Made by a program: the position numbers and the translations under genes | Shown here: positions 32,757 to 35,016 of the stretch, one piece after another | How positions within the stretch are numbered: the stretch's first letter is position 1 | Layout of the letters: the number at the start of each line of letters is the position of its first letter | Notes under the pieces: generated by a model | What the model was told of the DNA's origin: nothing | Seen by the model: the letters and a program-made list of their open reading frames with translations, nothing else | Database searches by the model: none | Assembly (NCBI GenBank): GCA_009694375.1 | Contig: SHVB01000005.1 | Coordinates: 62,001-126,000, forward strand | Length of the DNA stretch: 64,000 nt | Direction: 5' to 3' | Origin: Acidimicrobiia bacterium | Lineage (GTDB): Bacteria > Actinomycetota > Acidimicrobiia > Acidimicrobiales > VFJN01

Positions 32757-33224
32757 CTAGCGGGGCGGGTCCGGGAACGCGAAGGACTCGACGCGCGCAC
32801 CGGTGCGCGCCAGCGAAGTGTACCGACGGTCGGCGATGCGCCAGTGGCCGTCACTACGCCGATATCGATCCCGGTAGAGGCCGTAGGCCTGGGTCCACTC
32901 CCCGGCATGATCGTGACGCAACTCGCAGATGTACACCCTCCCGGTGGCGGTGGCCTCCCCCGTAAGTTCGACCACCGCGTTGAGAATGGCAAACTCAAAA
33001 AAGGCAAACCCCTCCAGGCTCTGCTCGATGAAGGTCGCAATCGCCTTGGGACCAGTGAGCGTGAAGGCCGGGCGCGTGCGGGTATCGATGTGCACCGACG
33101 CGTCGGCATCGAAGAGGGCTACCACCTCATCCCAAGCCCGCCGGGTAACGGAATCGCCGTAGGCGCTCTGCAACCGATGCACGGCGACCACCGAGCGCGT
33201 CCCCGCATCGTCGAGTTCGCGCAT
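32757..33224 (-). CDS. SnoaL-like / NTF2-superfamily protein
   Basis: 155 residues. The pattern HRLQSAYGDSVTRRAWDEVVALFDADA, read in two parts, with HWRIADRRYTSL near the end, is the cone-like SnoaL/NTF2 fold. Such proteins act as isomerases, cyclases or ligand-binding domains, often on polyketide or steroid-like compounds. The ATG overlaps the stop of the Fae-like gene by one base (TGATG), so it is co-translated as the third gene of the dioxygenase-Fae-SnoaL cassette. No catalytic Asp-His dyad is confidently assigned. Confidence 0.75.
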   Translation of the reverse strand: MRELDDAGTRSVVAVHRLQSAYGDSVTRRAWDEVVALFDADASVHIDTRTRPAFTLTGPKAIATFIEQSLEGFAFFEFAILNAVVELTGEATATGRVYICELRHDHAGEWTQAYGLYRDRYRRSDGHWRIADRRYTSLARTGARVESFAFPDPPR

Positions 33225-33721
33225 CAGGCTGGACGGAAGAAGGGGTTCCAGGCCAACTCGCGCTGGGCCACCACGTCAGCCGCCTCCGGCAGGCCTGCTC
33301 GGCCCAGGGCCAGCGCGCCGGCGGTGGCTTCCCGGTTGTTGGCGAACACCACCTCGGCGTCCCGAGCCAGGGGATCGACCCACACCGCCGCGATGACCAC
33401 CAGTGATGGCACCAACCCCTCGGTGATCGTGCCGGCGACGACCGCATCGGCCACCCCGGCAGCCACCCCGGCCTGCGCAGCACCCCAGGTGAGCCGGGCG
33501 TGCTCGTCGCCGTCGATGCGGGCCTTGTTCACGAAGAGGGTGAAGGGCACCACCGGCAACCCTGGCCGCAGTACCACCACAAACGGGGCGTGCCCGGCGG
33601 TGGGGGTGGCCAGGGCGGTGGCCCAGGCCTGGCCGACCGGCCCGTCTCGAAGACCCAGCACGGTGTTGAGGTGGGCGGCGGCGGCCCCCGAACCCACGAA
33701 ACATTCACCGATTTCCATCAT
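33224..33721 (-). CDS. Formaldehyde-activating enzyme (Fae) homologue
   Basis: 165 residues, the full length of Fae. Colinear Fae signatures: EIGECFVGSG, AAAHLNTVLG with the conserved active-site His17, FVNKARI, AQAGVAAGVADAV, VVIAAVWVDP, NNREATAGAL (compare NYEAT in methylotroph Fae) and a WNPFF tail. Fae condenses formaldehyde with tetrahydromethanopterin; homologues outside methylotrophs are poorly understood. Its ATG overlaps the stop of the dioxygenase by 4 nt and its own stop overlaps the SnoaL start. No methanopterin gene is in the window, so either the C1 carrier differs or the enzyme has another carbonyl substrate. Confidence 0.75.
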   Translation of the reverse strand: MMEIGECFVGSGAAAAHLNTVLGLRDGPVGQAWATALATPTAGHAPFVVVLRPGLPVVPFTLFVNKARIDGDEHARLTWGAAQAGVAAGVADAVVAGTITEGLVPSLVVIAAVWVDPLARDAEVVFANNREATAGALALGRAGLPEAADVVAQRELAWNPFFRPA

Positions 33722-34551
33722 CCGGACACTCCCCCGGGGTGACGGCGTCCATAGCGAATCTCTTTCAGCACATCCGAACTCATGGTGCCCTCTTTCGTGT
33801 CGTAGCCCAACAAGACAACCAACCGTGCTGTGGGGCCTTGCACGGGGGTGACCCGGTGCAGGGACCCCCGTCCCTCGAACACCACGAGGGTGCCGGGAAC
33901 CATCGGGACGGTGGTGATCAACTCCGGGGCCTCGCCCGCCAGCACTCGTCCCACCGTGTCGTAGTGCTCATCGGCTTCCTCACTTACTTCCCCGCGCAGA
34001 CAAGGCACGTTCTGGAACTCGCCCCCGCCATCGCTGGACTGAAGAGCCAGCGACACGACGAAGTCTGTTTGGTCGAAATGCCATCCGAGGGTGTCGCCCT
34101 CGTGCATCACGGTGAGGTTCATCGCCCCCAACGGATCGGCGTAGCGATAGAGGGGGGCGCGTCCGAGTAGCCGAGACACGAAATCCAGCAGGGCGTCCCA
34201 CTCGAACAGCGCCCGTAAGCCCGAGGTGGCCGCCAAGAAGCGGTCGTAGGCCACCGTGTGCACCGACGACCGGGCCCATGCCCGTCGGGGGTGGTCCGCT
34301 GGCCAGGCCTCAGGATCGGGAACTTCTAGGTACGGAGTGGACTGCACATCCTGGCGGTGGGCCCCCGCCGCCAGGCCGTCGCTTTCCTCCACCAATGCGG
34401 CCAGGACGTCGTCGCGCAGAAAGCCGGGCAAGATCGACACCCCGTGCTTCTGCAGTTCGGCGGCGTGGTGCCCGATCACCGATGCACCCGCACCGGTGGG
34501 AGACAGCACCGGATAGCGACCGAGATCAACAAGCGCGGCGGGGTCCGGCAC
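33718..34551 (-). CDS. 2-oxoglutarate/Fe(II) dioxygenase (phytanoyl-CoA hydroxylase-like, ArpA/HalD-like group)
   Basis: 277 residues. The iron facial triad is visible: His158-x-Asp160 in LGWHFDQTDFVV and distal His232 in GSLHRVTPV, with Arg243 placed to bind 2-oxoglutarate. The Asp in HxD means hydroxylase chemistry, not halogenase. GTG at 34551 is chosen as start because TAGGCT lies 7 nt upstream and longer frames have no similarity. It is the first gene of a three-gene overlapping cassette (dioxygenase, Fae, SnoaL). Substrate unknown; an oxidative demethylation would release formaldehyde for the Fae partner. Confidence 0.75.
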   Translation of the reverse strand: MPDPAALVDLGRYPVLSPTGAGASVIGHHAAELQKHGVSILPGFLRDDVLAALVEESDGLAAGAHRQDVQSTPYLEVPDPEAWPADHPRRAWARSSVHTVAYDRFLAATSGLRALFEWDALLDFVSRLLGRAPLYRYADPLGAMNLTVMHEGDTLGWHFDQTDFVVSLALQSSDGGGEFQNVPCLRGEVSEEADEHYDTVGRVLAGEAPELITTVPMVPGTLVVFEGRGSLHRVTPVQGPTARLVVLLGYDTKEGTMSSDVLKEIRYGRRHPGGVSG

Positions 34552-34564
34552 AGGCGACAGCCTA
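34552..34564 (-). promoter_or_regulatory. TANNNT -10 box for a leaderless start (dioxygenase-Fae-SnoaL cassette)
   Basis: TAGGCT (34564 to 34559, minus strand) lies 7 nt before the GTG at 34551. It would drive the whole three-gene cassette. Confidence 0.45.
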
Positions 34565-34730: not shown

Positions 34731-34920
34731 CCGCCCCCCAGCAGCCGTCGCGGGTGATCCCCGAGCGGCTGGCCCCGATCCTCGCGGCGGGCGCCCGCTG
34801 GTGGCGCGCTTCGAGGCCGACGGCCACCACCTTTACCTGGTGGGCGGCAGCGTGCGGAACCTGGTGCTGGGCCGTCCGGTCGGGGGTGACATCGACCTCA
34901 CCACCGATGCCCGGCCCGAG
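34727..34920 (+). pseudogene. Relic of a CCA tRNA nucleotidyltransferase (N-terminal fragment, frameshifted)
   Basis: From GTG 34727 the text VIPERLAPILAAGA matches the start of actinobacterial CCA-adding enzymes. At CCC 34794-34796 one base is missing relative to the expected GAPLVARFEA. The other frame then continues VARFEADGHHLYLVGGSVRN and DIDLTTDARPE, the nucleotidyltransferase GGxVRD and DxD region (with D to N in the first). Similarity ends at about 34920, so over 80% of the enzyme is absent. The remaining 34921-35016 holds nothing I can assign. An intact copy must exist elsewhere in the genome. Confidence 0.72.
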
Positions 34921-35016
34921 CAGGGCGTCGACGCGGAAGTTGGCCCGGATGAACGCCAGCTCGGCACCGCAGCCGAGTTCGACCGAGGCCCCGAAGGCCA
35001 GGGGCCTGCAGTGCGG

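Follow-up and report, generated by a model that had tools for sequence, protein, structure and literature searches.

A 2-oxoglutarate oxygenase of the HalD/BesD family and a non-canonical Fae homologue form a conserved gene pair in Acidimicrobiia

Organization of the locus

A 64,000-nucleotide stretch of an Acidimicrobiia genome (contig SHVB01000005.1), here called the window, contains three genes on the minus strand, preceded by a putative promoter element. The features are as follows:

34559..34564, minus strand: TAGGCT, putative -10 element, 7 nt upstream of the oxygenase GTG
33718..34551, minus strand: Fe(II)/2-oxoglutarate oxygenase gene of the HalD/BesD/Hydrox family (277 aa, GTG start), first gene of the conserved pair
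33224..33721, minus strand: Fae-family gene of a non-canonical, Asn-containing type (165 aa), second gene of the conserved pair
32757..33224, minus strand: SnoaL_4-type gene (155 aa; PF13577, E 2.6e-21), third gene

As a preliminary description of the locus had stated, the three genes overlap at their stop and start codons, with ATGA at the oxygenase/Fae junction and TGATG at the Fae/SnoaL junction. The interval that it gave for all three genes, 33224-34564, contains the oxygenase gene, the Fae gene, and TAGGCT, while the SnoaL gene lies outside it. The TANNNT promoter that it proposed corresponds to TAGGCT, and this putative element is kept in the two closest relatives of the locus, L100 and L101. 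Both retain the block GTGGGAGCAGGCCAGGGGGTC(A/C)TAGGCT, i.e., TAGGCT together with ca. 20 bases on its 5' side. The persistence of this block, despite an unrelated L100 sequence further upstream, fits the assignment of TAGGCT as a candidate -10 box for leaderless transcription.

The window genome, G000, is 2.58 Mb long, 96% complete, and contains a single Fae gene. Among named relatives in our scan, a Candidatus Microthrix MAG (L101) stands closest to it. On the plus strand, window positions 34801-34930, immediately upstream of the oxygenase gene, encode the first part of a CCA-adding enzyme/poly(A) polymerase head domain, which breaks off after ca. 30 profile positions. Since an intact copy is present elsewhere in the genome (G000:C16), the fragment is probably what is left of a gene truncated at the breakpoint of a rearrangement.

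The oxygenase belongs to the HalD/BesD family

In a profile search, the window oxygenase matched PF23169 (HalD) with an E value of 2.8e-14, and the same profile was matched by 24 of 24 aligned relatives. The best solved-structure matches of its AlphaFold model (pLDDT 93) were HalB, lysine hydroxylase 7jsd, BesD, HalA, and HalD, with Z scores of 22-24, while other 2-oxoglutarate enzymes scored well below (Z about 17). We conclude that the oxygenase is a member of the HalD/BesD family, the free-amino-acid hydroxylase/halogenase family, and is not of the generic demethylase type.

The iron site and the 2-oxoglutarate-binding Arg that had been reported as intact are indeed present and conserved: H158 and D160 of the HxD motif (H158-F-D160), the distal H232, and R243. 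The intact HxD marks the protein as a predicted hydroxylase-type enzyme. A radical halogenase is ruled out, as the His and Asp of HxD are present in all Fae-linked copies of the oxygenase (47/47), at the place where halogenases have HxG. A role in a defence system was also rejected, PADLOC having returned just a generic, weak match to a 2-oxoglutarate-dependent domain.

In a quick tree of the oxygenases, the copies not accompanied by Fae and three proteobacterial plasmid copies formed a single group (support 99). The Fe and 2-oxoglutarate ligands are common to this group and to the Fae-linked one, whereas E117, N145, M149, and R113 are invariant solely in Fae-linked oxygenases, as would be expected if the Fae-linked set had its own substrate. 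In BesD, E123 and D143 hold the amino group of the substrate lysine (PMC13244439). E117 and D139 of the window oxygenase align approximately with these acidic residues in a sequence alignment of what are distant proteins; the alignment is suggestive only, a lead that may point to a free amino acid as the substrate.

Plasmid-borne relatives of the oxygenase (35% identity) were found in Pantoea, Ensifer, Pseudomonas, and Rhodobacteraceae, beside importers of amino acids, amines, or peptides. These copies are not linked to Fae, and most belong to the other oxygenase clade; their importer neighbours give a hint as to the type of substrate. On one Rhodobacteraceae plasmid (L191:5956-12783), a related oxygenase is located beside a peptide-type importer and a gene of the trimethylamine-methyltransferase family, a possible hint that relatives of the oxygenase act on methylated amines.

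The Fae homologue forms a clade separate from canonical Fae

The product of the second gene matches PF08714 (E 1.4e-44; 152 bits, cut-off 27) and TIGR03126 (128.1 bits, cut-off 118.05), which places it inside the Fae family, as initially supposed. The full-length Fae signatures that had been claimed for it are seen in the full-length profile match and in the active-site His, H17, which aligns with the His of 1y5y; Lys66 and Gln83 are also kept. The claim has to be qualified two residues after the His, where the window protein has Asn (N19). The canonical residue at this position, which we take to be a pterin contact, is Asp, and it is found in 6/6 canonical copies (1y5y and five plasmid-borne copies, which made up the canonical set in both the residue table and the tree), while Asn occupies the position in nearly all of the 109 other Fae copies compared. 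His, Lys, and Gln are invariant among intact oxygenase-paired copies. In a quick tree, canonical Fae and the present proteins form separate clades with a support of 100 and a very long branch. Solved relatives of the window Fae are the M. extorquens enzyme and 8ub7, which contains the same sequence inside a longer chain. A scan of viral contigs with the window Fae revealed no relatives, and viral carriage was rejected.

Full-length Fae paralogues that have lost the His were observed at L041:9468-9980, L044:9468-9980, and L047:9444-9929, in each case away from oxygenase genes. In the first two loci, the paralogue is flanked by Rv3169-family-type genes, with an enolase-superfamily gene close by. 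The genomes of these two loci also carry a His-bearing, oxygenase-linked Fae.

The oxygenase and Fae genes are conserved as a pair

A co-occurrence search, which the preliminary description had proposed for all three families, revealed a strong association between two of them. A clear Fae gene is present in 37 of 296 genomes of the class, and a close oxygenase in 35 of 292 of these genomes. Both genes were found in 33 genomes, Fae alone in 4, the oxygenase alone in 2, and neither in 253 (Fisher 9.5e-37, not corrected for relatedness). The two genes are adjacent in 24 of the 33 co-bearing genomes, where random placement would give ca. 0.05 adjacencies; in the other nine they are unlinked, being on different contigs or far apart (276 kb in G003, for example). 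Co-presence extends over nine family groups. In one of these (f5), all six Fae-bearing genomes have the oxygenase, and both genes are missing from the five that are listed as Fae-free.

The oxygenase gene precedes the Fae gene on the same strand in 39 of 40 distinct adjacent pairs, and the 4-nt ATGA overlap is found in 22 of the 40. Two pairs were observed outside Actinomycetota, in a Myxococcota MAG and a Pseudomonadota MAG (L103 and L163). In a sample of the phylum, strong oxygenase matches were accompanied by Fae in 6/6 cases and weaker paralogues in 0/8. The mirror-tree correlation between oxygenase and Fae was r = 0.50 (shuffle maximum 0.27), species relationships being uncorrected. The genes that flank the pair show no conservation between families. 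We conclude that the pairing is well supported and strongly conserved, and that the oxygenase and Fae constitute a translationally coupled two-enzyme module.

The third gene behaves differently. Apart from the window, SnoaL neighbours the pair in L100 and L101 alone and is missing from the other pair loci. The conservation of the trio in relatives, which had been set as a test, is therefore not borne out, and the trio as a unit is ruled out; SnoaL is an addition specific to the Microthrix-like lineage, outside the conserved module.

Known formaldehyde routes are missing from the window genome

To our knowledge, the one established role of Fae is to feed formaldehyde into tetrahydromethanopterin (H4MPT)-dependent oxidation. 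Methenyl-H4MPT cyclohydrolase (Mch) was found in 0/39 carriers and close relatives, and formyltransferase (FTR) in 0/22 genomes searched; both searches were positive in methanogen controls. The gene context is thus non-methylotrophic, as it had appeared to be from the window, and with the H4MPT markers missing, Fae of the carriers cannot act as it does in methylotrophs. The window protein departs from canonical H4MPT-dependent Fae (EC 4.2.1.147) in two respects, the Asp after the His and the rest of the H4MPT pathway both being absent.

A mycothiol formaldehyde dehydrogenase (MscR-type) above the TIGR03451 cut-off is present in 16/39 genomes, and none was found in the window genome or its two nearest relatives (G000, G326, and G327). 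The search for methanopterin and mycothiol genes that had been suggested at the outset has therefore given a mixed answer: no H4MPT marker in any carrier tested, and a mycothiol enzyme that is absent from the window genome and present in others. Both routes are rejected for the window genome, which lacks Mch, FTR, and the MscR-type dehydrogenase, and no known acceptor pathway is thus at hand there.

A second genomic context of the same Fae clade

Approximately 44 of 80 named Fae loci lie behind an importer of the OpuC/ProU type (Cryobacterium, Microbacterium, Nocardioides, Actinomadura, and others), and a similar importer/Fae operon is carried by Streptomyces clavuligerus. In most of these operons, genes for an aldehyde dehydrogenase, a HIBADH-like reductase, and an Fe-alcohol dehydrogenase follow; an enolase-superfamily enzyme is often encoded, and an IclR regulator is found near by. 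The solute-binding protein of the importer is closest to binders of the choline, betaine, and ergothioneine type, and the enzymes gave generic matches only. No description was found for these actinomycete loci (L104-L177, e.g., L149:2499-11272).

The oxygenase was present in 0/25 named genomes tested that have Fae in the importer-type context, and no recognised oxygenase or demethylase was seen in the operons themselves. The same Fae clade thus occurs in two alternative contexts, and we infer that either would be consistent with small amines, cationic or methylated.

Discussion

The oxygenase and Fae genes are kept together in many uncultured bacteria that lack the one known pathway of Fae, and the oxygenase with its divergent Fae therefore probably constitutes an undescribed two-step pathway. 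No published description of the pair was found in the open-licence literature, which agrees with the initial impression of an undescribed combination and is weak evidence of novelty.

The preliminary description had pictured a module that demethylates and detoxifies. This view is weakened by the absence of a known acceptor pathway, by the nearest structures to the oxygenase, whose targets are C-H bonds in free lysine or ornithine, and by the failure of Fae3, a distant Fae homologue, to replace Fae1 (PMC11748545, PMC5023235). We infer the chemistry of the pair, from substrate to acceptor and including demethylation, as follows. The oxygenase would hydroxylate a small cationic compound resembling an amino acid or an amine, and hydroxylation of the carbon concerned would expose or release a one-carbon unit (N-methyl or similar). 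Fae would take the carbinolamine or formaldehyde-level unit on its active-site His and might then hand it to a non-H4MPT acceptor, with tetrahydrofolate as the simplest candidate. We tentatively favor such sequential action, in which the oxygenase would make a C1-labile hydroxylated product and Fae would handle this product or its C1 unit without H4MPT, while keeping some doubt about it. The quaternary-amine-type importer in the other Fae context was counted in its favor because such compounds often bear N-methyl groups. Weighing against it are the lack of any demethylase among the structural relatives of the oxygenase, the Asn in place of the canonical Asp, the failure of Fae3-type homologues to complement Fae1, and the importer-type operon with no recognised oxygenase or demethylase. 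In a broader view, which is possible though we hold it with considerable reserve, a widespread H4MPT-independent Fae clade would receive formaldehyde-level carbon straight from a 2-oxoglutarate oxygenase, of the amino-acid-hydroxylase family, that is dedicated to it. The two enzymes would then remove C1 units oxidatively as a self-contained module in non-methylotrophs, and the C1 acceptor would be one that is new for the Fae fold.

The main rival explanation is that Asn-type Fae is no formaldehyde enzyme and has been repurposed as a lyase or hydrolyase, whose substrates would be the hydroxylated compound made by the oxygenase and, in the importer operons, an analogous intermediate. The clade-wide change of Asp to Asn and the very long branch to canonical Fae would be in keeping with such re-use, as would the missing H4MPT pathway in all carriers tested, the lack of complementation by Fae3 (PMC11748545), and the content of the importer operons, whose enolase-superfamily, aldehyde dehydrogenase, HIBADH-like, and Fe-alcohol dehydrogenase genes are not C1 genes. 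However, the protein retains the catalytic His, Lys, and Gln and still scores above the TIGR03126 cut-off, which suggests ligand chemistry of the same kind, and we consider a lyase or hydrolyase role doubtful but a real possibility.

It is unlikely that Fae serves generally in the detoxification or sensing of formaldehyde and accompanies the oxygenase only because one small mobile unit carries both. The variable flanks of the pair are as expected for a mobile unit, and the window genome is without a mycothiol formaldehyde dehydrogenase above the cut-off; however, other carriers have the mycothiol enzyme, both genes are kept in the nine genomes where they are unlinked, and the 4-nt overlap persists in 22/40 pairs. 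Quite improbable, too, is a small natural-product cluster in which the pair and SnoaL would work with the nearby P450 and polyketide-cyclase-like genes, the oxygenase being a biosynthetic amino-acid hydroxylase as in BesD/Hydrox: its fold and family, and the P450, SRPBCC, and SnoaL genes near by in the window, agree with this, but beyond the closest relatives the pair shares no P450, SnoaL, or other biosynthetic neighbours, and an unsystematic look at the neighbours examined noticed no carrier-protein or NRPS/PKS genes.

The pair bears on the role of the many divergent Fae homologues: the present clade has a specific, strongly conserved partner in organisms where the known reaction cannot run. 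The partner fixes the type of chemistry, an Fe/2-oxoglutarate-dependent oxidation of a small amino-acid-like compound, and the two-protein system is small enough to be expressed and assayed. Automatic "formaldehyde-activating enzyme" labels in Actinomycetota should accordingly not be taken as a sign of methylotrophy.

Comparison with known systems

The canonical Fae of Methylorubrum extorquens AM1 (PDB 1y5y/1y60, EC 4.2.1.147) belongs to the same family over its full length, with 34% identity in the aligned region, and shares the active-site His, Lys, and Gln; the window clade differs from it in the Asn for Asp, in its separate position in the tree (support 100), in the absence of the H4MPT pathway from the genomes, and in having an oxygenase partner. 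The Fae-like proteins of Groups 2-4, three groups whose function is unknown (PMC11748545), and Fae1-2 and Fae3 of methylotrophs are likewise Fae homologues of unknown function, and those of methylotrophs do not fully replace Fae1 (PMC11748545, PMC5023235). For Fae1-2, flux modelling alone has led to the proposal that it works with tetrahydrofolate (PMC11748545). Fae1-2 and Fae3 were studied in methylotrophs that also have canonical Fae and H4MPT, and no oxygenase pairing was described for them (PMC11748545, PMC5023235).

The free-amino-acid halogenases and lysine hydroxylase BesD, HalB, HalD, and Hydrox (PDB 6nie, 7u6i, 7u6h, and 7jsd) share the fold (Z 22-24) and the Pfam family PF23169 with the window oxygenase, and Hydrox also shares HxD. 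Identity to them is just 16-20%; the halogenases have HxG where the window oxygenase has HxD, and E117, N145, M149, and R266 are invariant residues peculiar to the Fae-linked clade. Free lysine or ornithine is the substrate of these nearest structures, which oxidise its C-H bonds and not N-methyl groups; no demethylase is among them. The betaine-importer/Fae operons of Cryobacterium, Microbacterium, Nocardioides, and S. clavuligerus contain Fae of the same Asn-type clade as the window; instead of the oxygenase gene, they carry genes for an ABC importer of the OpuC type and for dehydrogenases, frequently with one for an enolase-superfamily enzyme as well.
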